Source: Gracilariopsis chorda (taxonomy: Eukaryota; Rhodophyta; Florideophyceae; Gracilariales; Gracilariaceae). Taken from it: DNA of 50,760 nucleotides. Shown here piece by piece: positions 18,865-50,760 of the stretch. The notes below the pieces were generated by a model, which ran no database searches, was not told where the DNA came from, and worked only from the letters and a program-made list of their open reading frames with translations. Location of the stretch: contig NBIV01000383.1 of NCBI GenBank assembly GCA_003194525.1, positions 1 to 50,760 on the forward strand, written 5' to 3'. The position numbers were made by a program, and so were the translations under genes. Every line of letters starts with the position of its first letter. The first letter of the stretch is position 1.

Positions 18865-18874
18865 CCCCCCCTCT
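18865..18874 (-). other. Element A3 polypurine tract
   Basis: The minus strand reads AGAGGGGGGG immediately before the 3' LTR. It lies about 10 bp after the pol stop codon, so unlike family B it does not overlap the coding sequence. Confidence 0.75.
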
Positions 18875-18884
18875 GTCACTGACT

Positions 18885-24113: not shown

Positions 24114-24128
24114 GCTGGGCCCATAACC
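24114..24128 (-). other. Element A3 primer-binding site (half tRNA-iMet)
   Basis: The plus strand reads GCTGGGCCCATAACC next to the LTR start at 24129, as in A1 and A2. Confidence 0.9.
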
Positions 24129-24907
24129 TGTTGAAAGTTGAAAGGAAGTTGAGGGGATGGAAGGGAAGTTCGCCAGCTCTGGCTTGGATTTACTTGGAGG
24201 TCCTTCAGGCACATCTTATATACCACTCTAAACTCGAATTGCGCGGGAACACCAACTACAAGTAAAACCTAAACCACTAAGCAGGGACACTCAGTACTAC
24301 CATTCATCATCTAACATGACATAGCCAGCTCAGCACAACCTCATTACACCAACGCACACCAACGCACCAATGTTCTGTAATAGTTACGTGCATACACATG
24401 ACCATGACAAGGCACAAATTCACGACTCCAACACACGCCAGCACATGCCAACACATCACGGTAAGTCAACACGTCACGGTAAGTCGGCACGTAACCTGTG
24501 GTGTTAGTGCCATGTCATCATGTGGCAATGCACACAACACCCACGTCATCAATATACCCGTGCACGTGTAAACCTGTTGACAGTGCATGCGCACCTTACC
24601 ATTGTACCAACCACTGCTGTACCACTTGTACCAGGTGTCAACCACTTCATCAGTATCCCCTGCACACAACGTACACTGTGACCACTGTAGTAGCTGGACA
24701 CGTGGGTGTGCCCAACCGATCCAGTTATGCCATACCACTTGTACGCACCACGTTGCATATGTACATTTGCAGTAGCCAATCAGAAGCCAGTCTCACGTTG
24801 GGTTCGCGCACACGCGCATATGCGCTTTTGCAGAGGTACCTTCTAAAACAGCCCATGCTCCCCGGAACATTTGGTTTTCAGTGACAGCACAGGTACTACT
24901 GCCAACA
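24129..24907 (-). repeat. Element A3 5' LTR (779 bp)
   Basis: The plus strand starts TGTTGAAAG and ends CTGCCAACA. The PBS abuts its low end, and the ACGTG target copy follows its high end. Confidence 0.92.
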
Positions 24908-24912
24908 ACGTG
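24908..24912. repeat. A3 target-site duplication, right copy (ACGTG)
   Basis: Matches 18081-18085. The A2 LTR sequence CATACACATGACC continues directly after it. Confidence 0.9.
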
Positions 24913-25429
24913 CATACACATGACCATGACAAGGCACAAATTCACGACTCCAACACACGCCACTACATGCCAACACATCACGGTAAGTCAACACGTCACA
25001 GTAAGTCGGCACGTAACCTCTGGTGTTAGTGCCATGTCATCATGTGGCAATGCACACAACACCCACGTCATCAATATACCTGTGCATGTGTAAACCTGTT
25101 GACAGTGTATGCGCACCTTACCATTGTACCAACCACTGCTGTACCACTTGTACCAGGTGTCAACCACTTTACCAGTATCCCCTGCACACAACGTACACTG
25201 TGACCACTGTAGTAGCTGGACACGTGGGTGTGTCCAACCGATCCAGTTATGCCATACCACTTGTACGCACCACGTTGCATATGTATATTTGCAGTAGCCA
25301 ATCAGAAGCCAGTTTCACGGTGGGTTCGCGCACACGCGCATATGCGCTTTTGCAGAGGTACCCTCTAAAACAGCCCATGCTTCCCGGAACATTTGGTTTT
25401 CAGTGACAGCACAGGTACTACTGCCAACA
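24913..25429 (-). repeat. Element A2 5' LTR, U3-side part
   Basis: The remaining 517 bp of the A2 LTR, ending CTGCCAACA. ACATG at 25430-25434 is the expected right target copy of A2. The flanking sequence is plus-strand family B integrase coding DNA, so A2 landed inside element D. Confidence 0.92.
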
Positions 25430-26030
25430 ACATGTCCTCTCGTTTGTACACGCTGCCAAATCCGATTGACATAATGACTTCGTTTCGCATCGCTATGGTG
25501 TTAGTGCAGTGTTTCCTGATGTTGGGCGAAATCTCCCGCAGGTTGGAGGAGCGCACGTGTTACCTCATAATGTTGGAGGAGCGCATGTGCATATTCAATA
25601 TTTGCATGCAAACAATGCCGAAGAGTACATTGCTCTCCAAGAACCAACCACGAATGGTCTGCAGGGAATGATATTCTCACCTTCCTACACCCCAGACCAT
25701 AATGCCATTGCCGAGCGCATCAATTGCACAATGGAAGAAGCTGCTCGGGCTTTGCTGATTCATGCATACTCGCAAGAATGCCTATGGCCGTATGCATTGA
25801 AATATGATATTTGTATATGCGATAGATCTCTCCACTCTACCACGGGTCTGAATCTATACCTTTTGCTGGGTGATGGTAAGCTGTCGTTGAAGTATGCTAA
25901 AGCGTTTGGATGCGCAGCATATATATTGAAAATGAACCCAGACACCAAGTTCCATTCTCGTGCACTTGAGGGAGTGTACCTGCAGACTCTGGAGCATGGT
26001 GCTTCCCAGGAACTCGAGGAGGAGTGTTGA
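25430..26030 (+). pseudogene. Element D pol remnant (integrase part, RT-RNase H deleted)
   Basis: A plus-strand, family B-like coding remnant. It begins with the segment before the GAG_pre-integrase region (SRLYTLPNPID) and jumps to the integrase core (HANNAEEYIAL, PDHNAIAERINCTM) and C-terminus (KAFGCAAYILKMNPDT). After YLQTLEHG it passes directly to the extreme pol C-terminus (SQELEEEC) with the stop codon in the LTR. RT and RNase H, about 670 residues, are absent. The GAG_pre-integrase region and the first integrase catalytic aspartate are also missing, and a motif is duplicated 30 bp apart (25542-25555 and 25572-25585). The frame 25509-26030 is open, but no functional enzyme is expected. 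D2 shares the same LEHG/SQ junction. Confidence 0.85.
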
Positions 26031-32190: not shown

Positions 32191-33007
32191 TGTTGATGTT
32201 AGCACATAGTGGAGTGCCTGGTAGTCCTGGGACATAATGGTGCAACACTTGGAAACAAAGTTTCATATAACGGAGGGCTGTTTTGGGGACCTGCTCTACA
32301 AAAGCATATATGCGTGTGTTCTCAAACCCAACGTGAAACGGGCATATGATTGGCTACTGCAAATACTCATATCTAACGTATTGGTTACAAGTGTTATGCA
32401 TTCTATGGGTCCTGGGCACGGAACTGGCCACTTTACATAAGTTGAATGGGCATGGTACTTAGGAATATGTGTGGCTCCGTCTGGTATATAGATACATGCA
32501 ACTGTTGCATAGGTGCGGTTGTGCAAGTAAGCACGTGCCATGCGCGCAACACACCTAGGGTATGTACATGGATGCGGTGGTATGTGTATTTGTGCTTTGT
32601 CATTGTCATTATGATGCGAAGAAGTAAGTGTTTATACAGTGCTGCAGCATGCTGGCACATTGTTGGCATGTCTGGTTCACTTATTGTGCGTTGTTGGCTG
32701 CTTGGTTCAGTTGGTCTGCATTGTTGTAATGTGTTGTTATGATGTTATGCATGGTTGTAAATAGGTGTAATCAGTGTGTGCAAGCCTTATTGTGTTGTTT
32801 CTTTTTATGATTGGTAGTTTTAGGTGTCCCCACTCAGTGGTATTGGGTTTTTCTTGTAGTTGTAGTGTGACGTAGAGGTGGTATATAACACGCTGAAGTT
32901 CCACTACCAAGTAAACTCGCCCCAAGCCTGGCAACCTTCACTCTTTATTTTCTTTCATTTTTTCCTTTTTCGTCACCGCCGAAGCCCAACTATCGTTTAC
33001 ACCATCA
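32191..33007 (+). repeat. Element G 5' LTR (family B, 817 bp)
   Basis: Starts TGTTGATGTTAGCAC and ends TTACACCATCA, with a PBS directly after it, so it is the 5' LTR of a plus-strand element. It lies inside the E gag remnant in the same orientation. A TATA motif occurs near 32881-32887 (GGTATATAACACG). Confidence 0.88.
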
Positions 33008-33022
33008 GGTTATGGGCCCAGA
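33008..33022 (+). other. Element G primer-binding site (half tRNA-iMet)
   Basis: GGTTATGGGCCCAGA, complementary to the initiator tRNA-Met anticodon stem-loop, abuts the LTR. This plus-strand case shows the element-sense PBS directly and confirms the minus-strand assignments. Confidence 0.92.
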
Positions 33023-33799
33023 GCGTCGATATTTTGCAGACGTCGCGCTCTTTTGACCTACTTTTCGTTTGATTCATCTTCTTGCGCAGATCGTTTTTGC
33101 CAGTCTTGTGGAAGTATTTGGTGCTGTGGTGAAAGTAGGCAAAGCGTTCAGAGACACCTTCTCTGGTAAGCCGACCTGCGCCTGTTCCGATCCCGGCTCC
33201 ATTGCTTCAGCGCACAAGGAAGACCGCGCTACTTTCCTGCAAGTGTCTAGCAGGGGTTAACTGCTGAACGCTTATCGGGACAGCTACTAACCTCCCTGGG
33301 ACGACACGTACAGATTGTAAAGTCCCTCGTTCTGAAGTGCGCAGAACAGGGTAGGTCAAGAAGAATTTCGTACCTCACCTGGAGAGAGTTACCAGGGTCC
33401 AGGGGTTCAACCCTTAGGGTAGCGGAGGTAGTTTCTCCCGTCAGTGCGCCTGCCTTTACGAAGTTATTTTCATTTCCGAGTTTGCTTCAGAGCTACTCGT
33501 GTGAATACTCCGGGCGTAGAGGACCCGACCTCCGCCTGTGATTCGCGTACCAGATGCCTCTGGACGAGCGTTGAGACTTGGTTACACGGTCTCCGCTGGC
33601 GCCCTCGCTGTTGAGTGTTGAGAATACTCCACTCCAGTATCACCCTCATAGTGTGACATCCACTATCAGTCCAAAGCTGCACCTCTCGAACAGCTCTTTT
33701 GTCAATTCCGATGGCGATTCTAAGCTTCGATTCGCTCACTCTGCTTTATTTCCGTGAATTATTTGTTCCTATTTTGGTTACTCAACTCCTTCTGGAAGC
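33023..33799 (+). other. Element G leader (5' UTR)
   Basis: About 777 bp, homologous to the B leader and nearly the reverse complement of the F leader. The conserved block is at 33411-33452. No gene is visible. Confidence 0.75.
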
Positions 33800-34649
33800 A
33801 TGTCAGACTCCGTAGTTTAGGCAGAACCTTCTGGTGGGAAGATACCGCGCTTCTACGGTAAGCGGGTCCTCTGGCGACACGGTCTACGTGCGGCTTGTCG
33901 AGTTAAAGCTGTCTGGAATGTTGTCATGTCAAGTTCGGAGGAGTAATCCAGTACTATAATGACACAAGCGTCTGGTTCTAGTGCTACCCAGACCCCCTGC
34001 CATATAGTTGCAAAGCGCGAAAAGGCATGTGCAAATCATCATTTGTGCACTTGGCGATACTCCACTGCGTGTAGTTATGGATGTGGATGATGACCCTGGT
34101 CGCATGCTTCAGCTATTTGATGCGCGATATGCATCAAACAGGACGGTTTCTCGTATAGCAGTGCAAACGCATCTATTCAGAATGTCGTATAACGGCCAAA
34201 ACATGTCCGAGTATGTGGACCAGTTTGCCTTTCTGTTCTCGCAGCTGGACCGCACGGGCAAGGATGCCACTATCCCAGAATCTCACATGGCACCCATGCT
34301 TCTGGCATCTATTGACCCCAGCTGCTCATTGGAGTCAACTGCAGCAGCACTTAGGACCAAGGAGATTCCAGAACTCACATGGGACTACGTGGCGACAACC
34401 CTGGTCGTTGAATACAATGCCCGCCAAATGGGTTCAGTCAGTTCTGGTAGACGTCGCAGTCGCAAGAAGAACAGGAACAGGGGTGGTGTCCGTATAAGTG
34501 GACACAGCAAATCATCACATGGTAACGAAAATGATGGTAATGCATCGGACTTAACAACAATTAATACCCCCACTGGTCGTGCATATGCTGCTGGAAGCAG
34601 AAACGGGTACCATTGCACCTTCTGTTAGCGCGATGGGCACAATCAATAA
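33800..34649 (+). pseudogene. Element G gag pseudogene
   Basis: Family B gag beginning at the ATG at 33800 but hitting TAG at codon 7 (33818-33820). It has a small in-frame loss in the N-terminal region (GKR to LWRH), another stop in the SSSEE tract and a frameshift in KACAIIICALG. From 34008 to 34628 the gag frame is open (MDVDDDPGRMLQL, YVDQFAFLFSQLD, basic tract). A TAG at 34625-34627 falls inside the zinc knuckle after CTFC. The tandem array begins at 34650; AATAA (34645-34649) is the likely left target copy. It is non-functional. Confidence 0.87.
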
Positions 34650-35428
34650 TGTTGAAAGTTGAAAGGAAGTTGAGGGGATGGAAGGGAAGTTCGCCAGCTC
34701 TGGCTTGGATTTACTTGGAGGTCCTTCAGGCACATCTTATATACCACTCTAAACTCGAATTGCGCGGGAACACCAACTACAAGTAAAACCTAAACCACTA
34801 AGCAGGGACACTCAGTACTACCATTCATGATCTAACATGACATAGCCAGCTCAGCACAACCTCATTACACCAACGCACACCAACGCACCAATGTTCTGTA
34901 ATAGTTACGTGCATACACATGACCATGACAAGGCACAAATTCACGACTCCAACACACGCCAGCACATGCCAACACATCACGGTAAGTCAACACGTCACGG
35001 TAAGTCGGCACGTAACCTGTGGTGTTAGTGCCATGTCATCATGTGGCAATGCACACAACACCCACGTCATCAATATACCCGTGCATGTGTAAACCTGTTG
35101 ACCATGCATGCGCACCTTACCATTGTACCAACCACTGCTGTACCACTTGTACCAGCTGTCAACCACTTCACCAGTATCCTCTGCACACAACGTACACTGT
35201 GACCACTGTAGTAGCTCGACACGTGGGTGTGTCCAACCGATCCAGTTATGCCATACCACTTGTACGCACCACGTTGCATATGTACATTTGCAGTAGCCAA
35301 TCAGAAGCCAGTTTCACGTTGGGTTCGCGCACACGCGCATATGCGCTTTTGCAGAGGTACCCTCTAAAACAGCCCATGCTCCCTGGAACATTTGGTTTCC
35401 AGTGACAGCACAGGTACTACTGCCAACA
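34650..35428 (-). repeat. Array unit 1 LTR (779 bp, long type)
   Basis: TGTTGAAAG...CTGCCAACA. It contains both copies of TACCACTTGTAC (35141-35152 and 35254-35265), 113 bp apart, whose recombination explains the short LTR type. Confidence 0.92.
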
Positions 35429-35440
35429 CCCCCCCTTTTT
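35429..35440 (-). other. Array unit 1 polypurine tract
   Basis: The minus strand reads AAAAAGGGGGGG before the LTR, about 8 bp after the RNase H stop codon. The other units have a similar AAAGAGGGGGGG tract. Confidence 0.7.
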
Positions 35441-35448
35441 CACTGACT

Positions 35449-37014
35449 TCAAAGGTCTAAGGGGAGCAAGCCACAGTCACCGCGGAACCTTGCCAGCTTA
35501 ACTCGACCGAGCGCTTTCGTCAGCATATCGGCAACCCTGTCTTCCGTGGAACAGTACTGCAACTGGACGGCTTTGTCGCGTAGAGCCTCTCTGGTGAAGT
35601 GAAAGCGAATATCAATGTGCTTAGTACGCTTGTTCACAACTCCATTTCGAGCAAGGTCGATGCAACCTTGGTTGTCCACGTACACAGTTGTGGGCTCAAC
35701 CATTAGCGTCACTGACTCATCCACGTGTAGTCCACTTGCGTTGCCAATGCCACTCCACAGTCGTCTCAGCCAGATTGCCTCCTTCGTCCCACTGCACAGA
35801 CTCACATACTCAGCCTCAGCGCTAGACAATGCAACTACTTCCTGTTGGCGCGAGCTCCAAGACACAGGAGCACCGCACATCATGAACACATACCCACTGG
35901 TGGATTTGCGGTTGGATATATCACCTGCCCAGTCAGAGTCTACGTATCCATACAGCTGAGTATCAGTCGTGGTGCCATAAGTAAGTCCGAGGGAGCGAGT
36001 GCCATTGAGGTAACGCAGAACACGCTTGACCGCTTTCCAATGAGTCTCTCCAGGTTTCTCGACATACTTGGCTAGCTTGGACACTGCAAACAAGATGTCC
36101 GGTCGAGTGCCAACAGAGAGATACATCAGACAACCGATCACCTGGCGATACGGGATGTTCGTCAGAGGCTTTTCTTCCTTAGTGAGGTCAGCACCGGAGT
36201 CCATGGGAGTGTCCATTGGTTTGCACTGCAACATGCCAAAACGTTCTAAGACCTTACGCGTGTATGCAGACTGTGTCAGGTACAGCTGTCTTTTGGATCG
36301 ATCACGATGGATCTCGAACCCAAGTACCATGCGCGCTTCACTGAGATCCTTCATCTGAAAACGTTTTGACAGTTCACGCTTTACGCGATTCATTGTCTCC
36401 ATACTTGGACTCGCAATGAGCAAGTCGTCCACATAAAGAGCAATGATCACAAGCGCTCCCAGTACCTCTCCGGTGTAGACGCACTCGTCTGCGACGTTTG
36501 GCTTCAGACCCATCCAACCAACGAGGAACAAGTACATCTTTGCAAACCACTGCCTTGATGCCTGTCGTAGCCCATAGATGGCTTTGTTGAGAAGGCATAC
36601 CAAGTCCTCGTTCCCAGGTTTGATGAATCCGTCCGGCTCCTCCATGTACACAGTCTCTTCCAGGTCGCCATTCAAGAATGCAGTCTTCACATCCATCTGG
36701 TGCAGATGATAGTCCTGCACTGCTACAATGGACAGAATCATTCTAATGGATGTGAATTTGACCACTGGTGCATACGTCTCGGAGAAGTCTACACCTTCCA
36801 TCTGCAGAAACCCTCGAGCCACCACACGAGCCTTGTACCTCACTGTCGGTTCATCGTTGTCGCCAGCCTCATATTTTTGCACAAATACCCACTTGGATGA
36901 TATCACGTTGCTGTCAGCTGGCCTTGGCACTAACTCCCATTTTTCATGCTCCATCAGAGACTCGTACTCACTGTTCATGGCCTTGGTCCACGCTTTTGAA
37001 TCAGGACGTGACAC
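35449..37014 (-). CDS. Array unit 1 RT-RNase H frame (521 codons) with IN tail upstream
   Basis: An open frame for a complete copia RT (RVT_2) and RNase H. RT has D108 and YVDD at 194-197; RNase H residues are D359/D361, E402, D447 and D468. The frame counted here begins at a GTG codon; the first in-frame ATG is at 36978, and the frame remains open upstream to the shared 1-base deletion near 37275. Beyond it lies the integrase C-terminus (IFIGYTSGSNGYK) in another frame, ending at the LTR of unit 2 at 37443. The natural start codon is lost, so expression would need a fresh promoter or internal initiation. Whether any protein is made is unknown. Confidence 0.72.
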   Translation of the reverse strand: MSRPDSKAWTKAMNSEYESLMEHEKWELVPRPADSNVISSKWVFVQKYEAGDNDEPTVRYKARVVARGFLQMEGVDFSETYAPVVKFTSIRMILSIVAVQDYHLHQMDVKTAFLNGDLEETVYMEEPDGFIKPGNEDLVCLLNKAIYGLRQASRQWFAKMYLFLVGWMGLKPNVADECVYTGEVLGALVIIALYVDDLLIASPSMETMNRVKRELSKRFQMKDLSEARMVLGFEIHRDRSKRQLYLTQSAYTRKVLERFGMLQCKPMDTPMDSGADLTKEEKPLTNIPYRQVIGCLMYLSVGTRPDILFAVSKLAKYVEKPGETHWKAVKRVLRYLNGTRSLGLTYGTTTDTQLYGYVDSDWAGDISNRKSTSGYVFMMCGAPVSWSSRQQEVVALSSAEAEYVSLCSGTKEAIWLRRLWSGIGNASGLHVDESVTLMVEPTTVYVDNQGCIDLARNGVVNKRTKHIDIRFHFTREALRDKAVQLQYCSTEDRVADMLTKALGRVKLARFRGDCGLLPLDL

Positions 37015-37442
37015 CGCATCGGAGTATGAGGATGGGACGTCATCACTGGCAGTGAGTAGGGCAGTTCCGCGCCACCACGAGGTAGGCGCTCTACGCTCAC
37101 GAGTGGATCTCCGAAGTGGTGGTGGATCTGGTACGTCTGGCTCAACTTCTCTCTCAGCTGTGGGCCCATCTTGGCCACTGCCTGAAGCTTCTTCTGGTGG
37201 AGTATCTGGTGCAGCGGGTTCAACTTGGGCAGCATCGGTGGGTTTAGTAGAGGTGGAGGTGATATTTGATTTCGGCGCTCCGAGATGTCGATCTCAGCAT
37301 AGTCGTCATCATCAACGTGGTCAGTACCTTGATCTGAACCACTACATTCGTCAAACTTCACATCTCTCGACAGAACCACCTTCTTCTTTTGCGCATCCCA
37401 CAGTTTATAACCGTTCGATCCAGATGTGTACCCAATAAAGAT
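37015..37442 (-). pseudogene. Array unit 1 integrase C-terminal tail and linker
   Basis: Contains the linker rich in Pro, Ser and Glu and the integrase C-terminal fragment IFIGYTSGSNGYKLWDAQKKK. The two are out of frame because of the shared deletion near 37275. It stops exactly at the LTR terminus. Corresponding tails are 39695-40122, 42488-42915, 45168-45595 and 47849-48276, and, partial, 50529-50760. Confidence 0.82.
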
Positions 37443-38108
37443 TGTTGAAAGTTGAAAGGAAGTTGAGGGGATGGAAGGGAAGTTCGCCAGCTCTGGCTTG
37501 GATTTACTTGGAGGTCCTTCAGGCACATCTTATATACCACTCTAAACTCGAATTGCGCGGGAACACCAACTACAAGTAAAACCTAAACCACTAAGCAGGG
37601 ACACTCAGTACTACCATTCATGATCTAACATGACATAGCCAGCTCAGCACAACCTCATTACACCAACGCACACCAACGCACCAATGTTCTGTAATAGTTA
37701 CGTGCATACACATGACCATGACAAGGCACAAATTCACGACTCCAACACACGCCAGCACATGCCAACACATCACGGTAAGTCAACACGTCACGGTAAGTCG
37801 GCACGTAACCTGTGGTGTTAGTGCCATGTCATCATGTGGCAATGCACACAACACCCACGTCATCAATATACCCGTGCATGTGTAAACCTGTTGACAGTGC
37901 ATGCGCACCTTACCATTGTACCAACCACTGCTGTACCACTTGTACGCACCACGTTGCATATGTACATTTGCAGTAGCCAATCAGAAGCCAGTTTCACGTT
38001 GGGTTCGCGCACACGCGCATATGCGCTTTTGCAGAGGTACCCTCTAAAACAGCCCATGCTCCCCGGAACATTTGGTTTTCAGTGACAGCACAGGTACTAC
38101 TGCCAACA
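37443..38108 (-). repeat. Array unit 2 LTR (666 bp, short type)
   Basis: Ends TGTTGAAAG...CTGCCAACA are intact, but 113 bp between the two TACCACTTGTAC repeats are missing, leaving one repeat at 37934-37945. The deletion is clean and lies in U3. Confidence 0.92.
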
Positions 38109-38128
38109 CCCCCCCTCTTTCACTGACT

Positions 38129-39694
38129 TCAAAGGTCTAAGGGGAGCAAGCCACAGTCACCGCGGAACCTTGCCAGCTTAACTCGACCGAGCGCTTTCGT
38201 CAGCATATCGGCAACCCTGTCTTCCGTGGAACAGTACTGCAACTGGACGGCTTTGTCGCGTAGAGCCTCTCTGGTGAAGTGAAAGCGAATATCAATGTGC
38301 TTAGTACGCTTGTTCACAACTCCATTTCGAGCAAGGTCGATGCAACCTTGGTTGTCCACGTACACAGTTGTGGGCTCAACCATTAGCGTCACTGACTCAT
38401 CCACGTGTAGTCCACGTGCGTTGCCAATGTTACTCCACAGTCGTCTCAGCCAGATTGCCTCCTTCGTCCCACTGCACAGACTCACATACTCAGCCTCAGT
38501 GCTAGACAATGCAACTACTTCCTGTTGGCGCGAGCTCCAAGACACAGGAGCACCGCACATCATGAACACATACCCACTGGTGGACTTGCAGTTGGATATA
38601 TCACCTGCCCAGTCAGAGTCTACGTATCCATACAGCTGAGTATCAGTCGTGGTGCCATAAGTAAGTCCGAGGGAGCGAGTGCCATTGAGGTAACGCAGAA
38701 CACGCTTGACCGCTTTCCAATGAGTCTCTCCAGGTTTCTCGACATACTTGGCTAGCTTGGACACTGCAAACGAGATGTCCGGTCGAGTGCCAACAGAGAG
38801 ATAAATCAGACAACCGATCACCTGGCGATACGGGATGTTCGTCAGAGGCTTTTCTTCCTTAGTGAGGTCAGCACCGGAGTCCATGGGAGTGTCCATTGGT
38901 TTGCACTGCAACATGCCAAAACGTTCTAAGACCTTACGCGTGTATGCAGACTGTGTCAGGTACAGCTGTCTTTTGGATCGATCACGATGGATCTCGAACC
39001 CAAGTACCATGCGCGCTTCACTGAGATCCTTCATCTGAAAACGTTTTGACAGTTCACGCTTTACGCGATTCATTGTCTCCATACTTGGACTCGCAATGAG
39101 CAAGTCGTCCACATAAAGAGCAATGATCACAAGCGCTCCCAGTACCTCTCCGGTGTAGACGCACTCGTCTGCGACGTTTGGCTTCAGACCCATCCAACCA
39201 ACGAGGAACAAGTACATCTTTGCAAACCACTGCCTTGATGCCTGTCGTAGCCCATAGATGGCTTTGTTGAGAAGGCATACCAAGTCCTCGTTCCCAGGTT
39301 TGATGAATCCGTCCGGCTCCTCCATGTACACAGTCTCTTCCAGGTCGCCATTCAAGAATGCAGTCTTCACATCCATCTGGTGCAGATGATAGTCCTGCAC
39401 TGCTACAATGGACAGAATCATTCTAATGGATGTGAATTTGACCACTGGTGCATACGTCTCGGAGAAGTCTACACCTTCTATCTGCAGAAACCCTCGAGCC
39501 ACCACACGAGCCTTGTACCTCACTGTCGGTTCATCGTTGTCGCCAGCCTCATATTTTTGCACAAATACCCACTTGGATGATATCACGTTGCTGTCAGCTG
39601 GCCTTGGCACTAACTCCCATTTGTCATGCTCCATCAGAGACTCGTACTCACTGTTCATGGCCTTGGTCCACGCTTTTGAATCAGGACGTGACAC
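38129..39694 (-). CDS. Array unit 2 RT-RNase H frame
   Basis: A 521-codon open frame with YVDD and all RNase H acidic residues present. It carries variants MEHDKWEL, QIEG, EEPDG, a Cys in place of Arg in SNCKSTSG, and SNIGNARG. As in unit 1 the frame starts without its natural ATG (first ATG 36 bases in). The integrase tail is at 39695-40122. Confidence 0.72.
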   Translation of the reverse strand: MSRPDSKAWTKAMNSEYESLMEHDKWELVPRPADSNVISSKWVFVQKYEAGDNDEPTVRYKARVVARGFLQIEGVDFSETYAPVVKFTSIRMILSIVAVQDYHLHQMDVKTAFLNGDLEETVYMEEPDGFIKPGNEDLVCLLNKAIYGLRQASRQWFAKMYLFLVGWMGLKPNVADECVYTGEVLGALVIIALYVDDLLIASPSMETMNRVKRELSKRFQMKDLSEARMVLGFEIHRDRSKRQLYLTQSAYTRKVLERFGMLQCKPMDTPMDSGADLTKEEKPLTNIPYRQVIGCLIYLSVGTRPDISFAVSKLAKYVEKPGETHWKAVKRVLRYLNGTRSLGLTYGTTTDTQLYGYVDSDWAGDISNCKSTSGYVFMMCGAPVSWSSRQQEVVALSSTEAEYVSLCSGTKEAIWLRRLWSNIGNARGLHVDESVTLMVEPTTVYVDNQGCIDLARNGVVNKRTKHIDIRFHFTREALRDKAVQLQYCSTEDRVADMLTKALGRVKLARFRGDCGLLPLDL

Positions 39695-40122
39695 TGCATC
39701 GGAATATGAGGATGGGACGTCATCACTGGCAGTGAGTAGGGCAGTTCCGCGCCACCACGAGGTAGGCGCTCTACGCTCACGAGTGGATCTCCGAAGTGGT
39801 GGTGGATCTGGTACGTCTGGCTCAACTTCTCTCTCAGCTGTGGGCCCATCTTGGCCACTGCCTGAAGCTTCTTCTGGTGGAGTATCTGGTGCAGCGGGTT
39901 CAACTTGGGCAGCATCGGTGGGTTTAGTAGAGGTGGAGGTGATATTTGATTTCGGCGCTCCGAGATGTCGATCTCAGCATAGTCGTCATCATCAACGTGG
40001 TCAGTACCTTGATCTGAACCACTACATTCGTCAAACCTCACATCTCTCGACAGAACCACCTTCTTCTTTTGCGCATCCCACAGTTTATAACCGTTCGATC
40101 CAGATGTGTACCCAATAAAGAT

Positions 40123-40901
40123 TGTTGAAAGTTGAAAGGAAGTTGAGGGGATGGAAGGGAAGTTCGCCAGCTCTGGCTTGGATTTACTTGGAGGTCCTTC
40201 AGGCACATCTTATATACCACTCTAAACTCGAATTGCGCGGGAACACCAACTACAAGTAAAACCTAAACCACTAAGCAGGGACACTCAGTACTACCATTCA
40301 TGATCTAACATGACATAGCCAGCTCAGCACAACCTCATTACACCAACGCACACCAACGCACCAATGTTCTGTAATAGTTACGTGCATACACATGACCATG
40401 ACAAGGCACAAATTCACGACTCCAACACACGCCAGCACATGCCAACACATCACGGTAAGTCAACACGTCACGGTAAGTCGGCACGTAACCTGTGGTGTTA
40501 GTGCCATGTCATCATGTGGCAATGCACACAACACCCACGTCATCAATATACCCGTGCATGTGTAAACCTGTTGACAGTGCATGCGCACCTTACCATTGTA
40601 CCAACCACTGCTGTACCACTTGTACCAGCTGTCAACCACTTCACCAGTATCCTCTGCACACAACGTACACTGTGACCACTGTAGTAGCTCGACACGTGGG
40701 TGTGTCCAACCGATCCAGTTATGCCATACCACTTGTACGCACCACGTTGCATATGTACATTTGCAGTAGCCAATCAGAAGCCAGTTTCACGTTGGGTTCG
40801 CGCACACGCGCATATGCGCTTTTGCAGAGGTACCCTCTAAAACAGCCCATGCTCCCCGGAACATTTGGTTTTCAGTGACAGCACAGGTACTACTGCCAAC
40901 A
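40123..40901 (-). repeat. Array unit 3 LTR (779 bp, long type)
   Basis: A full-length LTR with the 113-bp segment present, as in unit 1. Like units 1 and 2 it reads CATTCATGATC near the U5 side. Confidence 0.92.
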
Positions 40902-40921
40902 CCCCCCCTCTTTCACTGACT

Positions 40922-42487
40922 TCAAAGGTCTAAGGGGAGCAAGCCACAGTCACCGCGGAACCTTGCCAGCTTAACTCGACCGAGCGCTTTCGTCAGCATA
41001 TCGGCAACCCTGTCTTCCGTGGAACAGTACTGCAACTGGACGGCTTTGTCGCGTAGAGCCTCTCTGGTGAAGTGAAAGCGAATATCAATGTGCTTAGTAC
41101 GCTTGTTCACAACTCCATTTCGAGCAAGGTCGATGCAACCTTGGTTGTCCACGTACACAGTTGTGGGCTCAACCATTAGCGTCACTGACTCATCCACGTG
41201 TAGTCCACTTGCGTTGCCAATGCCACTCCACAGTCGTCTCAGCCAGATCGCTTCCTTCGTCCCACTGCACAGACTCACATACTCAGCCTCAGTGCTAGAC
41301 AATGCAACTACTTCCTGTTGGCGCGAGCTCCAAGACACAGGAGCATCGCACATCATGAACACATACCCACTGGTGGACTTGCAGTTGGATATATCACCTG
41401 CCCAGTCAGAGTCTACGTATCCATACAGCTGAGTATCAGTCGTGGTGCCATAAGTAAGTCCGAGGGAGCGAGTGCCATTGAGGTAACGCAGAACACGCTT
41501 GACCGCTTTCCAATGAGTCTCTCCAGGTTTCTCGACATACTTGGCTAGCTTGGACACTGCAAACGAGATGTCCGGTCGAGTGCCAACAGAGAGATAAATC
41601 AGACAACCGATCACCTGGCGATACGGGATGTTCGTCAGAGGCTTTTCTTCCTTAGTGAGGTCAGCACCGGAGTCCATGGGAGTGTCCATTGGTTTGCAAT
41701 GCAACATGCCAAAACGTTCTAAGACCTTACGCGTGTATGCAGACTGTGTCAGGTACAGCTGTCTTTTGGATCGATCACGATGGATCTCGAACCCAAGTAC
41801 CATGCGCGCTTCACTGAGATCCTTCATCTGAAAACGTTTTGACAGTTCACGCTTTACGCGATTCATTGTCTCCATACTTGGACTCGCAATGAGCAAGTCG
41901 TCCACATAAAGAGCAATGATCACAAGCGATCCCAGTACCTCTCCGGTGTAGACGCACTCGTCTGCGACGTTTGGCTTCAGACCCATCCAACCAACGAGGA
42001 ACAAGTACATCTTTGCAAACCACTGCCTTGATGCCTGTCGTAGCCCATAGATGGCTTTGTTGAGAAGGCATACCAAGTCCTCGTTCCCAGGTTTGATGAA
42101 TCCGTCCGGCTGCTCCATGTACACAGTCTCTTCCAGGTCGCCATTCAAGAATGCAGTCTTCACATCCATCTGGTGCAGATGATAGTCCTGCACTGCTACA
42201 ATGGACAGAATCATTCTAATGGATGTGAATTTGACCACTGGTGCATACGTCTCGGAGAAGTCTACACCTTCCATCTGCAGAAACCCTCGAGCCACCACAC
42301 GAGCCTTGTACCTCACTGTCGGTTCATCGTTGTCGCCAGCCTCATATTTTTGCACAAATACCCACTTGGATGATATCACGTTGCTGTCAGCTGGCCTTGG
42401 CACTAACTCCCATTTTTCATGCTCCATCAGAGACTCGTACTCACTGTTCATGGCCTTGGTCCACGCTTTTGAATCAGGACGTGACAC
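40922..42487 (-). CDS. Array unit 3 RT-RNase H frame
   Basis: A 521-codon open frame with RT and RNase H motifs intact. Variants include MEHEKWEL (shared with unit 1, the other long-LTR unit), EQPDG, GSLVII, FGMLHCK and MMCDAP. The integrase tail is at 42488-42915. Confidence 0.72.
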   Translation of the reverse strand: MSRPDSKAWTKAMNSEYESLMEHEKWELVPRPADSNVISSKWVFVQKYEAGDNDEPTVRYKARVVARGFLQMEGVDFSETYAPVVKFTSIRMILSIVAVQDYHLHQMDVKTAFLNGDLEETVYMEQPDGFIKPGNEDLVCLLNKAIYGLRQASRQWFAKMYLFLVGWMGLKPNVADECVYTGEVLGSLVIIALYVDDLLIASPSMETMNRVKRELSKRFQMKDLSEARMVLGFEIHRDRSKRQLYLTQSAYTRKVLERFGMLHCKPMDTPMDSGADLTKEEKPLTNIPYRQVIGCLIYLSVGTRPDISFAVSKLAKYVEKPGETHWKAVKRVLRYLNGTRSLGLTYGTTTDTQLYGYVDSDWAGDISNCKSTSGYVFMMCDAPVSWSSRQQEVVALSSTEAEYVSLCSGTKEAIWLRRLWSGIGNASGLHVDESVTLMVEPTTVYVDNQGCIDLARNGVVNKRTKHIDIRFHFTREALRDKAVQLQYCSTEDRVADMLTKALGRVKLARFRGDCGLLPLDL

Positions 42488-42915
42488 CGCATCGGAGTAT
42501 GAGGATGGGACGTCATCACTGGCAGTGAGTAGGGCAGTTCCGCGCCACCACGAGGTAGGCGCTCTACGCTCACGAGTGGATCTCCGAAGTGGTGGTGGAT
42601 CTGGTACGTCTGGCTCAACTTCTCTCTCAGCTGTGGGCCCATCTTGGCCACTGCCTGAAGCTTCTTCTGGTGGAGTATCTGGTGCAGCGGGTTCAACTTG
42701 GGCAGCATCGGTGGGTTTAGTAGAGGTGGAGGTGATATTTGATTTCGGCGCTCCAAGATGTCGATCTCAGCATAGTCGTCATCATCAACGTGGTCAGTAC
42801 CTTGATCTGAACCACTACATTCGTCAAACCTCACATCTCTCGACAGAACCACCTTCTTCTTTTGCGCATCCCACAGTTTATAACCGTTCGATCCAGATGT
42901 GTACCCAATAAAGAT

Positions 42916-43581
42916 TGTTGAAAGTTGAAAGGAAGTTGAGGGGATGGAAGGGAAGTTCGCCAGCTCTGGCTTGGATTTACTTGGAGGTCCTTCAGGCACA
43001 TCTTATATACCACTCTAAACTCGAATTGCGCGGGAACACCAACTACAAGTAAAACCTAAACCACTAAGCAGGGACACTCAGTACTACCATTCATCATCTA
43101 ACATGACATAGCCAGCTCAGCACAACCTCATTACACCAACGCACACCAACGCACCAATGTTCTGTAATAGTTACGTGCATACACATGACCATGACAAGGC
43201 ACAAATTCACGACTCCAACACACGCCAGCACATGCCAACACATCACGGTAAGTCAACACGTCACGGTAAGTCGGCACGTAACCTGTGGTGTTAGTGCCAT
43301 GTCATCATGTGGCAATGCACACAACACCCACGTCATCAATATACCCGTGCATGTGTAAACCTGTTGACAGTGCATGCGCACCTTACCATTGTACCAACCA
43401 CTGCTGTACCACTTGTACGCACCACGTTGCATATGTACATTTGCAGTAGCCAATCAGAAGCCAGTTTCACGTTGGGTTCGCGCACACGCGCATATGCGCT
43501 TTTGCAGAGGTACCCTCTAAAACAGCCCATGCTCCCCGGAACATTTGGTTTTCAGTGACAGCACAGGTACTACTGCCAACA
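42916..43581 (-). repeat. Array unit 4 LTR (666 bp, short type)
   Basis: The same 113-bp deletion as unit 2, but CATTCATCATC in place of CATTCATGATC, so it is not a simple copy of unit 2. Confidence 0.92.
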
Positions 43582-43601
43582 CCCCCCCTCTTTCACTGAC
43601 T

Positions 43602-45167
43602 TCAAAGGTCTAAGGGGAGCAAGCCACAGTCACCGCGGAACCTTGCCAGCTTAACTCGACCGAGCGCTTTCGTCAGCATATCGGCAACCCTGTCTTCCGT
43701 GGAACAGTACTGCAACTGGACGGCTTTGTCGCGTAGAGCCTCTCTGGTGAAGTGAAAGCGAATATCAATGTGCTTAGTACGCTTGTTCACAACTCCATTT
43801 CGAGCAAGGTCGATGCAACCTTGGTTGTCCACGTACACAGTTGTGGGCTCAACCATTAGCGTCACTGACTCATCCACGTGTAGTCCACGTGCGTTGCCAA
43901 TGCCACTCCACAGTCGTCTCAGCCAGATTGCCTCCTTCGTCCCACTGCACAGACTCACATACTCAGCCTCAGTGCTAGACAATGCAACTACTTCCTGTTG
44001 GCGCGAGCTCCAAGACACAGGAGCACCGCACATCATGAACACATACCCACTGGTGGACTTGCAGTTGGATATATCACCTGCCCAGTCAGAGTCTACGTAT
44101 CCATACAGCTGAGTATCAGTCGTGGTGCCATAAGTAAGTCCGAGGGAGCGAGTGCCATTGAGGTAACGCAGAACACGCTTGACCGCTTTCCAATGAGTCT
44201 CTCCAGGTTTCTCGACATACTTGGCTAGCTTGGACACTGCAAACGAGATGTCCGGTCGAGTGCCAACAGAGAGATAAATCAGACAACCGATCACCTGGCG
44301 ATACGGGATGTTCGTCAGAGGCTTTTCTTCCTTAGTGAGGTCAGCACCGGAGTCCATGGGAGTGTCCATTGGTTTGCACTGCAACATGCCAAAACGTTCT
44401 AAGACCTTACGCGTGTATGCAGACTGTGTCAGGTACAGCTGTCTTTTGGATCGATCACGATGGATCTCGAACCCAAGTACCATGCGCGCTTCACTGAGAT
44501 CCTTCATCTGAAAACGTTTTGACAGTTCACGCTTTACGCGATTCATTGTCTCCATACTTGGACTCGCAATGAGCAAGTCGTCCACATAAAGAGCAATGAT
44601 CACAAGCGCTCCCAGTACCTCTCCGGTGTAGACGCACTCGTCTGCGACGTTTGGCTTCAGACCCATCCAACCAACGAGGAACAAGTACATCTTTGCAAAC
44701 CACTGCCTTGATGCCTGTCGTAGCCCATAGATGGCTTTTTTGAGAAGGCATACCAAGTCCTCGTTCCCAGGTTTGATGAATCCGTCCGGCTGCTCCATGT
44801 ACACAGTCTCTTCCAGGTCGCCATTCAAGAATGCAGTCTTCACATCCATCTGGTGCAGATGATAGTCCTGCACTGCTACAATGGACAGAATCATTCTAAT
44901 GGATGTGAATTTGACCACTGGTGCATACGTCTCGGAGAAGTCTACACCTTCCATCTGCAGAAACCCTCGAGCCACCACACGAGCCTTGTACCTCACTGTC
45001 GGTTCATCGTTGTCGCCAGCCTCATATTTTTGCACAAATACCCACTTGGATGATATCACGTTGCTGTCAGCTGGCCTTGGCACTAACTCCCATTTGTCAT
45101 GCTCCATCAGAGACTCGTACTCACTGTTCATGGCCTTGGTCCACGCTTTTGAATCAGGACGTGACAC
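43602..45167 (-). CDS. Array unit 4 RT-RNase H frame
   Basis: A 521-codon open frame with catalytic motifs intact. Variants include MEHDKWEL, EQPDG and LLKKAIYG (Asn to Lys). The integrase tail is at 45168-45595. Confidence 0.72.
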   Translation of the reverse strand: MSRPDSKAWTKAMNSEYESLMEHDKWELVPRPADSNVISSKWVFVQKYEAGDNDEPTVRYKARVVARGFLQMEGVDFSETYAPVVKFTSIRMILSIVAVQDYHLHQMDVKTAFLNGDLEETVYMEQPDGFIKPGNEDLVCLLKKAIYGLRQASRQWFAKMYLFLVGWMGLKPNVADECVYTGEVLGALVIIALYVDDLLIASPSMETMNRVKRELSKRFQMKDLSEARMVLGFEIHRDRSKRQLYLTQSAYTRKVLERFGMLQCKPMDTPMDSGADLTKEEKPLTNIPYRQVIGCLIYLSVGTRPDISFAVSKLAKYVEKPGETHWKAVKRVLRYLNGTRSLGLTYGTTTDTQLYGYVDSDWAGDISNCKSTSGYVFMMCGAPVSWSSRQQEVVALSSTEAEYVSLCSGTKEAIWLRRLWSGIGNARGLHVDESVTLMVEPTTVYVDNQGCIDLARNGVVNKRTKHIDIRFHFTREALRDKAVQLQYCSTEDRVADMLTKALGRVKLARFRGDCGLLPLDL

Positions 45168-45595
45168 CGCATCGGAGTATGAGGATGGGACGTCATAACT
45201 GGCAGTGAGTAGGGCAGTTCCGCGCCACCACGAGGTAGGCGCTCTACGCTCACGAGTGGATCTCCGAAGTGGTGGTGGATCTGGTACGTCTGGCTCAACT
45301 TCTCTCTCAGCTGTGGGCCCATCTTGGCCACTGCCTGAAGCTTCTTCTGGTGGAGTATCTGGTGCAGCGGGTTCAACTTGGGCAGCATCGGTGGGTTTAG
45401 TAGAGGTGGAGGTGATATTTGATTTCGGCGCTCCGAGATGTCGATCTCAGCATAGTCGTCATCATCAACGTGGTCAGTACCTTGATCTGAACCACTACAT
45501 TCGTCAAACCTCACATCTCTCGACAGAACCACCTTCTTCTTTTGCGCATCCCACAGTTTATAACCGTTCGATCCAGATGTGTACCCAATAAAGAT

Positions 45596-46261
45596 TGTTG
45601 AAAGTTGAAAGGAAGTTGAGGGGATGGAAGGGAAGTTCGCCAGCTCTGGCTTGGATTTACTTGGAGGTCCTTCAGGCACATCTTATATACCACTCTAAAC
45701 TCGAATTGCGCGGGAACACCAACTACAAGTAAAACCTAAACCACTAAGCAGGGACACTCAGTACTACCATTCATCATCTAACATGACATAGCCAGCTCAG
45801 CACAACCTCATTACACCAACGCACACCAACGCACCAAAGTTCTGTAATAGTTACGTGCATACACATGACCATGACAAGGCACAAATTCACGACTCCAACA
45901 CACGCCAGCACATGCCAACACATCACGGTAAGTCAACACGTCACGGTAAGTCGGCACGTAACCTGTGGTGTTAGTGCCATGTCATCATGTGGCAATGCAC
46001 ACAACACCCACGTCATCAATATACCCGTGCATGTGTAAACCTGTTGACAGTGCATGCGCACCTTATCATTGTACCAACCACTGCTGTACCACTTGTACGC
46101 ACCACGTTGCATATGTACATTTGCAGTAGCCAATCAGAAGCCAGTTTCACGTTGGGTTCGCGCACACGCGCATATGCGCTTTTGCAGAGGTACCCTCTAA
46201 AACAGCCCATGCTCCCCGGAACATTTGGTTTTCAGTGACAGCACAGGTACTACTGCCAACA
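45596..46261 (-). repeat. Array unit 5 LTR (666 bp, short type)
   Basis: A short-type LTR with CATTCATCATC. It carries private substitutions such as CACCAAAGTTC. Confidence 0.92.
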
Positions 46262-46281
46262 CCCCCCCTCTTTCACTGACT

Positions 46282-47848
46282 TCAAAGGTCTAAGGGGAGC
46301 AAGCCACAGTCACCGCGGAACCTTGCCAGCTTAACTCGACCGAGCGCTTTCGTCAGCATATCGGCAACCCTGTCTTCCGTGGAACAGTACTGCAACTGGA
46401 CGGCTTTGTCGCGTAGAGCCTCTCTGGTGAAGTGAAAGCGAATATCAATGTGCTTAGTACGCTTGTTCACAACTCCATTTCGAGCAAGGTCGATGCAACC
46501 TTGGTTGTCCACGTACACAGTTGTGGGCTCAACCATTAGCGTCACTGACTCATCCACGTGTAGTCCACGTGCGTTGCCAATGCCACTCCACAGTCGTCTC
46601 AGCCAGATTGCCTCCTTCGTCCCACTGCACAGACTCACATACTCAGCCTCAGTGCTAGACAATGCAAACTACTTCCTGTTGGCGCGAGCTCCAAGACACA
46701 GGAGCACCGCACATCATGAACACATACCCACTGGTGGACTTGCAGTTGGATATATCACCTGCCCAGTCAGAGTCTACGTATCCATACAGCTGAGTATCAG
46801 TCGTGGTGCCATAAGTAAGTCCGAGGGAGCGAGTGCCATTGAGGTAACGCAGAACACGCTTGACCGCTTTCCAATGAGTCTCTCCAGGTTTCTCGACATA
46901 CTTGGCTAGCTTGGACACTGCAAACGAGATGTCCGGTCGAGTGCCAACAGAGAGATAAATCAGACAACCGATCACCTGGCGATACGGGATGTTCGTCAGA
47001 GGCTTTTCTTCCTTAGTGAGGTCAGCACCGGAGTCCATGGGAGTGTCCATTGGTTTGCACTGCAACATGCCAAAACGTTCTAAGACCTTACGCGTGTATG
47101 CAGACTGTGTCAGGTACAGCTGTCTTTTGGATCGATCACGATGGATCTCGAACCCAAGTACCATGCGCGCTTCACTGAGATCCTTCATCTGAAAACGTTT
47201 TGACAGTTCACGCTTTACGCGATTCATTGTCTCCATACTTGGACTCGCAATGAGCAAGTCGTCCACATAAAGAGCAATGATCACAAGCGCTCCCAGTACC
47301 TCTCCGGTGTAGACGCACTCGTCTGCGACGTTTGGCTTCAGACCCATCCAACCAACGAGGAACAAGTACATCTTTGCAAACCACTGCCTTGATGCCTGTC
47401 GTAGCCCATAGATGGCTTTGTTGAGAAGGCATACCAAGTCCTCGTTCCCAGGTTTGATGAATCCGTCCGGCTGCTCCATGTACACAGTCTCTTCCAGGTC
47501 GCCATTCAAGAATGCAGTCTTCACATCCATCTGGTGCAGATGATAGTCCTGCACTGCTACAATGGACAGAATCATTCTAATGGATGTGAATTTGACCACT
47601 GGTGCATACGTCTCGGAGAAGTCTACACCTTCCATCTGCAGAAACCCTCGAGCCACCACACGAGCCTTGTACCTCACTGTCGGTTCATCGTTGTCGCCAG
47701 CCTCATATTTTTGCACAAATACCCACTTGGATGATATCACGTTGCTGTCAGCTGGCCTTGGCACTAACTCCCATTTGTCATGCTCCATCAGAGACTCGTA
47801 CTCACTGTTCATGGCCTTGGTCCACGCTTTTGAATCAGGACGTGACAC
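46282..47848 (-). pseudogene. Array unit 5 RT-RNase H, single-base frameshift
   Basis: RT with YVDD is intact in the frame 47848-46655, but an extra A near 46666 (GCAAACTAC against GCAACTAC) shifts the frame within RNase H at the VVALSS motif. The remaining RNase H residues (VDNQGC, HIDIRFHF) continue at 46662-46282. The indel extends a short A-run and could be a sequencing error. The integrase tail is at 47849-48276. Confidence 0.8.
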
Positions 47849-48276
47849 CGCATCGGAGTATGAGGATGGGACGTCATAACTGGCAGTGAGTAGGGCAGTT
47901 CCGCGCCACCACGAGGTAGGCGCTCTACGCTCACGAGTGGATCTCCGAAGTGGTGGTGGATCTGGTACGTCTGGCTCAACTTCTCTCTCAGCTGTGGGCC
48001 CATCTTGGCCACTGCCTGAAGCTTCTTCTGGTGGAGTATCTGGTGCAGCGGGTTCAACTTGGGCAGCATCGGTGGGTTTAGTAGAGGTGGAGGTGATATT
48101 TGATTTCGGCGCTCCGAGATGTCGATCTCAGCATAGTCGTCATCATCAACGTGGTCAGTACCTTGATCTGAACCACTACATTCGTCAAACCTCACATCTC
48201 TCGACAGAACCACCTTCTTCTTTTGCGCATCCCACAGTTTATAACCGTTCGATCCAGATGTGTACCCAATAAAGAT

Positions 48277-48943
48277 TGTTGAAAGTTGAAAGGAAGTTGA
48301 GGGGATGGAAGGGAAGTTCGCCAGCTCTGGCTTGGATTTACTTGGAGGTCCTTCAGGCACATCTTATATACCACTCTAAACTCGAATTGCGCGGGAACAC
48401 CAACTACAAGTAAAACCTAAACCACTAAGCAGGGACACTCAGTACTACCATTCATCATCTAACATGACATAGCCAGCTCAGCACAACCTCATTACACCAA
48501 CGCACACCAACGCACCAATGTTCTGTAATAGTTACGTGCATACACATGACCATGACAAGGCACAAATTCACGACTCCAACACACGCCAGCACATGCCAAC
48601 ACATCACGGTAAGTCAACACGTCACGGTAAGTCGGCACGTAACCTGTGGTGTTAGTGCCATGTCATCATGTGGCAATGCACACAACACCCACGTCATCAA
48701 TATACCCGTGCATGTGTAAACCTGTTGACAGTGCATGCGCACCTTACCATTGTACCAACCACTGCTGTACCACTTGTACGCACCACGTTGCATATGTACA
48801 TTTGCAGTAGCCAATCAGAAGCCAGTTTCACGTTGGGTTCGCGCACACGCGCATATGCGCTTTTGCAGAGGTACCCTCTAAAAACAGCCCATGCTCCCCG
48901 GAACATTTGGTTTTCAGTGACAGCACAGGTACTACTGCCAACA
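48277..48943 (-). repeat. Array unit 6 LTR (667 bp, short type)
   Basis: A short-type LTR with one extra A (CTCTAAAAACAGC against CTCTAAAACAGC), otherwise like units 4 and 5. Confidence 0.92.
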
Positions 48944-48971
48944 CCCCCCCTCTTTCACTGACTTCAAAGGT

Positions 48972-50528
48972 CTAAGGGGAGCAAGCCACAGTCACCGCGG
49001 AACCTTGCCAGCTTAACTCGACGAGCGCTTTCGTCAGCATATCGGCAACCCTGTCTTCCGTGGAACAGTACTGCAACTGGACGGCTTTGTCGCGTAGAGC
49101 CTCTCTGGTGAAGTGAAAGCGAATATCAATGTGCTTAGTACGCTTGTTCACAACTCCATTTCGAGCAAGGTCGATGCAACCTTGGTTGTCCACGTACACA
49201 GTTGTGGGCTCAACCATTAGCGTCACTGACTCATCCACGTGTAGTCCACGTGCGTTGCCAATGCCACTCCACAGTCGTCTCAGCCAGATTGCCTCCTTCG
49301 TCCCACTGCACAGACTCACATACTCAGCCTCAGTGCTAGACAATGCAACTACTTCCTGTTGGCGCGAGCTCCAAGACACAGGAGCACCGCACATCATGAA
49401 CACATACCCACTGGTGGACTTGCGGTTGGATATATCACCTGCCCAGTCAGAGTCTACGTATCCATACAGCTGAGTATCAGTCGTGGTGCCATAAGTAAGT
49501 CCGAGGGAGCGAGTGCCATTGAGGTAACGCAGAACACGCTTGACCGCTTTCCAATGAGTCTCTCCAGGTTTCTCGACATACTTGGCTAGTTTGGACACTG
49601 CAAACGAGATGTCCGGTCGAGTGCCAACAGAGAGATAAATCAGACAACCGATCACCTGGCGATACGGGATGTTCGTCAGAGGCTTTTCTACCTTAGTGAG
49701 GTCAGCACCGGAGTCCATGGGAGTGTCCATTGGTTTGCACTGCAACATGACAAAACGTTCTAAGACCTTACGCGTGTATGCAGACTGTGTCAGGTACAGC
49801 TGTCTTTTGGATCGATCACGATGGATCTCGAACCCAAGTACCATGCGCGCTTCACTGAGATCCTTCATCTGAAAACGTTTTGACAGTTCACGCTTTACGC
49901 GATTCATTGTCTCCATACTTGGACTCGCAATGAGCAAGTCGTCCACATAAAGAGCAATGATCACAAGCGCTCCCAGTACCTCTCCGGTGTAGACGCACTC
50001 GTCTGCGACGTTTGGCTTCAGACCCATCCAACCAACGAGGAACAAGTACATCTTTGCAAACCACTGCCTTGATGCCTGTCGTAGCCCATAGATGGCTTTG
50101 TTGAGAAGGCATACCAAGTCCTCGTTCCCAGGTTTGATGAATCCGTCCGGCTGCTCCATGTACACAGTCTCTTCCAGGTCGCCATTCAAGAATGCAGTCT
50201 TCACATCCATCTGGTGCAGATGATAGTCCTGCACTGCTACAATGGACAGAATCATTCTAATGGATGTGAATTTGACCACTGGTGCATACGTCTCGGAGAA
50301 GTCTACACCTTCCATCTGCAGAAACCCTCGAGCCACCACACGAGCCTTGTACCTCACTGTCGGTTCATCGTTGTCGCCAGCCTCATATTTTTGCACAAAT
50401 ACCCACTTGGATGATATCACGTTGCTGTCAGCTGGCCTTGGCACTAACTCCCATTTGTCATGCTCCATCAGAGACTCGTACTCACTGTTCATGGCCTTGG
50501 TCCACGCTTTTGAATCAGGACGTGACAC
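48972..50528 (-). CDS. Array unit 6 RT-RNase H frame with altered C-terminus
   Basis: A 518-codon open frame. RT and RNase H motifs are present, including the final HIDIRFHF. A missing C near 49021 (CTCGACGAGCG against CTCGACCGAGCG) changes the last residues after MLTKAL. It has Arg in SNRKSTSG, as unit 1. The integrase tail (50529 onward) runs off the window. Confidence 0.7.
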   Translation of the reverse strand: MSRPDSKAWTKAMNSEYESLMEHDKWELVPRPADSNVISSKWVFVQKYEAGDNDEPTVRYKARVVARGFLQMEGVDFSETYAPVVKFTSIRMILSIVAVQDYHLHQMDVKTAFLNGDLEETVYMEQPDGFIKPGNEDLVCLLNKAIYGLRQASRQWFAKMYLFLVGWMGLKPNVADECVYTGEVLGALVIIALYVDDLLIASPSMETMNRVKRELSKRFQMKDLSEARMVLGFEIHRDRSKRQLYLTQSAYTRKVLERFVMLQCKPMDTPMDSGADLTKVEKPLTNIPYRQVIGCLIYLSVGTRPDISFAVSKLAKYVEKPGETHWKAVKRVLRYLNGTRSLGLTYGTTTDTQLYGYVDSDWAGDISNRKSTSGYVFMMCGAPVSWSSRQQEVVALSSTEAEYVSLCSGTKEAIWLRRLWSGIGNARGLHVDESVTLMVEPTTVYVDNQGCIDLARNGVVNKRTKHIDIRFHFTREALRDKAVQLQYCSTEDRVADMLTKALVELSWQGSAVTVACSP

Positions 50529-50760
50529 CGCATCGGAGTATGAGGATGGGACGTCATCACTGGCAGTGAGTAGGGCAGTTCCGCGCCACCACGAGGTAGG
50601 CGCTCTACGCTCACGAGTGGATCTCCGAAGTGGTGGTGGATCTGGTACGTCTGGCTCAACTTCTCTCTCAGCTGTGGGCCCATCGTGGCCACTGCCTGAA
50701 GCTTCTTCTGGTGGAGTATCTGGTGCAGCGGGTTCAACTTGGGCAGCATCGGTGGGTTTA

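Follow-up and report, generated by a model that had tools for sequence, protein, structure and literature searches.

How does part of a mobile element come to stand head to tail, several times over, at one place in a genome? The question is raised by contig C383 (NBIV01000383.1) of Gracilariopsis chorda, a florideophyte red alga, whose right-hand part is an array built from a copia retrotransposon family, here called family A. The window, that is the whole stretch of DNA analyzed, was the entire contig (50,760 nt), and the assembly to which it belongs comprises 91,333,945 bases in 1081 contigs. An HSP90 on contig C102 of this assembly matches records named Gracilariopsis chorda and Gracilaria vermiculophylla with 100% identity over 730 residues, and a COX1 search (PF00115) gave two fragments, both below the cut-off of the family. 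Comparison of the window with itself, together with alignment of the units, defined an array that runs from position 34650 to the contig end at 50760 and contains five complete units and one cut unit, head to tail (approximately 5.9 units visible). The best explanation, to which we assign a probability of about two in three, is that a nested family-A insertion seeded a fragment of the form LTR-tail-LTR (LTR, long terminal repeat) and that recombination between LTRs multiplied the unit in place. The units and the features within them are as follows.

34650-37442, minus strand: unit U1, 2793 bp, with a full 779-bp LTR at 34650-35428 (TGTTG...CAACA), followed by the complement of the polypurine tract, RNase H, reverse transcriptase (RT), a linker and the integrase tail
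37443-40122, minus strand: unit U2, 2680 bp, LTR with a 113-bp internal deletion
40123-42915, minus strand: unit U3, 2793 bp, LTR without the 113-bp deletion
42916-45595, minus strand: unit U4, 2680 bp, LTR with the 113-bp deletion
45596-48276, minus strand: unit U5, 2681 bp, LTR with the 113-bp deletion, an extra A in the RT-RNase H frame
48277-50760, minus strand: unit U6, 2484 bp, cut at the contig end, LTR with the 113-bp deletion
37431-37454, plus strand: first junction, where the integrase tail meets the LTR exactly at its terminus; further junctions start at 40111, 42904, 45584 and 48265
37931-37953, plus strand: deletion scar in the LTR (113 bp lost), located at a direct repeat of 12 bp; further scars at 43404, 46084 and 48765
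35449-37293, minus strand: open frame of 614 amino acids in U1, containing RVT_2 (Pfam); the frame is likewise open in U2, U3 and U4

The two monomer lengths exist because U2, U4, U5 and U6 have the 113-bp LTR deletion in common. This layout bears out a first-pass annotation made from the sequence alone, which had described five complete units and a partial one in head-to-tail order, open at the window edge and derived from a truncated copia element: U6 is cut by the contig end, RVT_2 lies in the unit, and the primer-binding-site (PBS) side is replaced by the integrase tail. The 113-bp deletion was not part of that annotation.

The founder junction and the source family

The source element is a Ty1/copia LTR retrotransposon, as seen from its domains, the TG...CA ends of its LTRs and its short target duplication. 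Family-A LTRs measure 779 bp and have the termini TGTTG...CAACA. The domains Retrotran_gag_2, Pol_BBD, gag_pre-integrs, rve and SH3_retrovirus were found in the frames of longer family-A copies, and RVT_2 in the array unit. Further copies of the family lie in the window, two of which are listed here.

18086-24907, minus strand: the longer family-A copy, which retains both LTRs (779 bp each) and sits within the LTR of a second copy of the family; used as the yardstick for the units
1-4868, minus strand: family-A copy that the left end of the contig cuts off; its sequence shows no truncation at the breakpoint seen in the array

The longer copy has ACGTG on both sides, a 5-bp target duplication, and family A therefore duplicates 5 bp of its target and inserts into itself.

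All five junctions between an integrase tail and the neighboring LTR were letter-for-letter alike over the 30 bases compared, and in each complete unit the integrase tail occupies the place of the next LTR's PBS side. A search of the 91.3-Mb assembly at up to three mismatches returned five junction matches, all on C383, and a reversed-pattern control returned none. At this threshold the assembly contained no isolated single junction elsewhere, and no junction copy on another contig that would mark a second locus of the truncated element. A simple deletion at the junction would have 0 bp of microhomology (0 and 0 bp). The units also share an altered linker, a small complex alteration whose net effect is the loss of one base pair and hence a shift of frame; at up to one mismatch this allele was matched five times in the assembly, always on C383 and once with the mismatch. 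The annotation had proposed the same breakpoint in every unit, a shared linker deletion and the amplification of one founder. The breakpoint stands at five of five junctions, the single founder agrees with a junction and a linker allele matched only within this array, and the linker change is indeed shared, although it is not a plain deletion. The confinement of the junction, the linker allele and the 113-bp deletion to the array supports a single founder that was probably amplified in tandem and in place.

Comparison with dispersed copies set the units further apart. Among units and copies with letters at the positions concerned, nine sites were fixed in the units and differed from every dispersed copy compared; these comprise eight substitutions and a 1-bp deletion, and three of the sites are adjacent and perhaps reflect one event. 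The dispersed copies compared were six of the seven top-scoring sequences among the 35 non-array matches listed, from 389 candidates of which 40 were scored; the longer copy in the window was included, as was the left copy over the part that it covers. The six dispersed copies differed from one another at 0-4 positions in 1877 bases and from U1-U5 at 21-27 positions, with 15-17 differences from U6 in 1680 bases. Their near-identity probably reflects a recent burst of family A. As the units are further from these copies than the copies are from each other, the comparison points to a founder that had already diverged when the burst produced them.

Differences between units and the coding frame

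In the unit alignment, pairs among U1-U5 differed by 3-18 substitutions, compared with 47-56 between these units and the corresponding part of the longer copy (18086-20879). From this copy U6, which is shorter, differed by 39. Private letters occur in all six units. Mean differences increased with unit separation, being 11.5, 13.0, 13.5 and 18.0 at separations of 1, 2, 3 and 4 (4, 3, 2 and 1 pairs, respectively). When the scar of the 113-bp deletion was searched at up to one mismatch, four matches were found in the assembly, all inside the array, and family-A LTR starts numbered 679 at up to three mismatches. Since the scar is confined to the array despite this number of LTR starts, the deletion most likely originated within the array and then spread between units. 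Recurrent slippage between the 12-bp repeats could imitate such spread, yet the scar was matched nowhere outside the array. A four-gamete test on the five informative sites of U1-U5 revealed two pairs of sites with all four combinations. The patchy occurrence of the LTR deletion (present in U2, U4, U5 and U6 and absent from U1 and U3), together with sites that conflict with simple branching, indicates that the units exchanged sequence, a pattern that fits homogenization after founding.

The unit frame carries motifs of copia RT and RNase H, the latter recognized by its motifs only. A coding-competent RT-RNase H segment had been proposed for each monomer; this is true of U1-U4 as far as an open frame goes. 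In U5 one extra A shortens the product to 490 amino acids, and in U6, where 595 residues are visible before the contig ends, the frame is shifted near the C-terminus only. These single-base indels may be real or may be assembly errors. Differences among U1-U4 comprised 15 amino-acid-changing and 6 silent changes; 77% changing would be expected without constraint, and these 21 changes showed no sign of selection to keep the RT frame (P = 0.36). With this ratio as expected in the absence of constraint, the frame is open and not demonstrably kept. In a protein search with the RT, the named organisms noted among the 120 matches listed were mainly land plants.

Surroundings and other arrays in the assembly

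The array lies in a nest of retroelements. Its start (34649|34650) falls exactly at the LTR terminus, within a fragment of a second copia family (family B).

32191-34649, plus strand: left flank, family-B fragment, in the orientation opposite to the family-B copies at 4867-16897

Further left, 16896-25431 is an insertion nest in which the copy at 18086-24907 lies within an older family-A LTR; the adjoining inner part of this older copy is interrupted by a tandem of family B. The tandem occupies 4867-16897, its segments 4866-11012 and 10751-16897 are 99.85% identical with a period of 5885, and it contains three LTR-side copies and two internal regions, the first LTR copy adjoining a family-A LTR end. 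Other arrangements of family-A LTRs were seen on other contigs. Pairs of LTR starts in opposite orientation, approximately 245 bases apart, occur alike on two contigs (C951:17053-17818 and C739:3674-4440), as would result from duplication of an inverted LTR structure, and C310 has two LTR starts on the same strand at 89549 and 89618, 69 bp apart.

Spacing was surveyed for 100 LTR starts listed of the 679, with an intact-element spacing of approximately 6043. Regular spacings of another size among the LTR starts listed were 5842 on C184 (five LTRs), 4432 on C272 (four), approximately 4060 on C281 (three) and 8071 on C55 (three), and paired spacings were 11953 on C147 (two pairs) and approximately 10,228 on C212 (two pairs). 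Sequence was compared for C184 and C147 and for parts of C272 and C281; C55 and C212 were assessed by spacing alone. Two of these loci have the following composition.

C184:110001-160000: array with a period of 5842, in which a family-A LTR is combined with family-B-like sequence and with internal pieces that carry an inner deletion
C147:165001-195000: tandem repeats containing family-A LTRs, period 11953

The C184 units differed by 11-72 substitutions per pair; the leftmost was 69-72 from the other three, which were 11-14 apart among themselves. The C147 repeats differed by 62 substitutions in 9 kb and those of C272 by 8 in 1.4 kb, and the 850 bases compared on C281 were identical. The companion monomers are different composites, and these arrays therefore look independent of the C383 array. 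That the latter is the sole such case was rejected, given tandem arrays with other periods on other contigs; exchange between LTRs as the simple cause of all the arrays was also not supported, as the similarity on C184 starts outside the LTR. Among the matches listed, RT-region pairs 6044 bp apart on one strand were found on C468, C530 and C582, and on C468 the second RT match is preceded by an LTR start at a distance of 917 bp, which corresponds to a full unit. These pairs would fit full elements that share an LTR, and would thereby speak for recombination between LTRs at other loci too.

Origin, growth and known relatives

The founding event would have joined the outer terminus of a family-A LTR to a site in the integrase tail, with loss of everything upstream of the tail. 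An exact LTR end without microhomology points to a founder made by integrase, and the joining most likely came about when a family-A element inserted into a second copy of its family, both in the same orientation, giving a seed of the form LTR-[integrase tail, RT, RNase H]-LTR. Support for this route comes from the window, where family A has inserted into itself at its exact terminus with a 5-bp duplication. Misaligned recombination between LTRs on sister chromatids or homologues, by unequal exchange or gap-filling conversion, would then have multiplied the LTR-plus-tail unit in place, and continued exchange between units would have carried the 113-bp LTR deletion to four of the six. We infer nested insertion as the founder event and LTR-LTR recombination as the motor, and the array is most economically seen as a side product of recombination among nested retroelements.

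Several points weigh against this explanation. The four-gamete conflicts depend on five informative sites, and the 113-bp deletion sits between 12-bp repeats, where recurrence is conceivable. The four companion arrays compared have differing composite monomers with family-B-like pieces, and on C184 the similarity between repeats begins outside the LTR. The far array edge was searched as the LTR end plus the 5 flank letters at up to two mismatches, a pattern that also covers the reciprocal junction of a nested insertion provided that the LTR end matches exactly; it gave 31 places, none with either flank, and both features may lie past the contig end.

Because neither 5-letter flank was present at these places, the assembly cannot separate nested insertion from autointegration, in which the cDNA of an element attacks its own integrase region and closes into a circle of one LTR plus tail, equal to one monomer. 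Such a circle, or a rolling-circle concatemer of it, would then enter a resident family-A LTR by homologous recombination. Retroviral autointegration is expected to give a deletion circle, which here corresponds to one monomer, and the exact LTR end, the lack of microhomology and the unmatched reciprocal junction of a nested insertion all agree with this origin. We consider it unlikely: a deletion found only in the array and only in some units demands later exchange in place in any case, and the reciprocal junction that was not matched could be located past the end of the contig. Another route would be a simple internal deletion by end joining, in which one element lost all sequence between its integrase tail and the very start of its 5' LTR. 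LTR recombination would have followed, as for the maize repeat CRM1TR, for which a deletion-made precursor of LTR, untranslated region (UTR) and LTR is proposed (PMC3648361). This origin requires no second insertion, but the break would have to hit the LTR terminus exactly by chance with 0 bp of microhomology, and we regard it as quite unlikely. A mobile truncated element of the LARD (large retrotransposon derivative) or TRIM (terminal-repeat retrotransposon in miniature) kind was rejected, as the PBS side is replaced at all five junctions and the search of the assembly at up to three mismatches gave no junction copy on another contig.

Two other readings concern the reality and the size of the array. 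A loop through the LTRs in the repeat graph of the assembly could yield false extra units, and the contig does end inside the array, with single-base indels in U5 and U6 and with identical compared bases in the C281 array. We judge such an artefact highly improbable, as the units differ mostly by substitutions and all six have private letters, the 113-bp deletion occurs in an irregular unit order, and the units of C184 are likewise distinct. Distinct units and an irregular deletion order therefore exclude a loop over one identical sequence. The visible units could also be the margin of a very long array, perhaps a block at a centromere or in heterochromatin, which would be compatible with the other readings. 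The contig end within the array and the surrounding retroelement nest are in keeping with a true satellite of this kind; with the junction on no other contig, we think it very unlikely. With approximately 5.9 units seen, the annotation's label of a satellite birth was overstated.

Retrotransposon-derived tandem repeats are already well described, and the C383 array is a further case with an unusually clear founder junction. Among the titles listed by literature searches, none on this array was seen. The maize and Cassandra repeats described next are close precedents. CRM1TR and CRM4TR are tandem repeats derived from maize centromeric retrotransposons and present at few loci; an LTR-UTR-LTR precursor was proposed for them, with conversion or unequal exchange enlarging and homogenizing the arrays, and the authors also considered nested insertion (PMC3648361). 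In both systems the monomer holds LTR and adjoining internal sequence of a retroelement, and with its one-element monomers in head-to-tail order and its one shared junction the C383 array fits a retrotransposon-derived tandem repeat of the CRM1TR kind. The CRM elements are Ty3/gypsy, with an LTR-plus-UTR monomer whose 5' end lies inside the LTR (PMC3648361), whereas the C383 array is Ty1/copia, has its junction at the exact LTR terminus and carries an RT and RNase H frame in the monomer.

LTR elements in tandem are also known from Cassandra, whose plant arrays alternate LTR and internal domain and for which LTR-LTR recombination, template switching and unequal exchange were proposed (PMC7215508), and from the Wukong TRIM tandems of maize, for which unequal crossing over was suggested (PMC4528315). 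Both are short non-coding TRIM elements; the C383 array, in contrast, derives from a family that is otherwise full-length and holds a truncated piece of its coding interior. The Ogre-derived satellites of Lathyrus resemble it as satellite-like arrays founded by LTR retrotransposons, with several origins per genome; their seeds were short tandem repeats in the 3'UTR, unlike the LTR-bounded pol piece of C383 (PMC7004042). BARE1 in barley forms full-element tandems that share LTRs (cited in PMC7215508), in the order LTR-internal-LTR-internal-LTR, and the family-A spacing on C468, C530 and C582 is comparable. Unlike the C383 array, BARE1 tandems retain the complete internal region.

A broader reading, which we hold as tentative and rather doubtful, is that integrase founds satellite seeds in a genome that a single recent copia family has filled with copies, with self-insertion or autointegration repeatedly making LTR-bounded fragments and LTR recombination amplifying each of them. 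If true, one copia family would give rise to many incipient satellites, each independent of the others and with a monomer of its own. Taken together, these data present a young example, in a red alga, of a known route from mobile element to tandem repeat, at an early stage in which the founder junction is readable to the base and a mutation is apparently spreading between units. Together with the other arrays in the assembly, it may serve as one of several independent examples for studying how tandem repeats are seeded by mobile elements.

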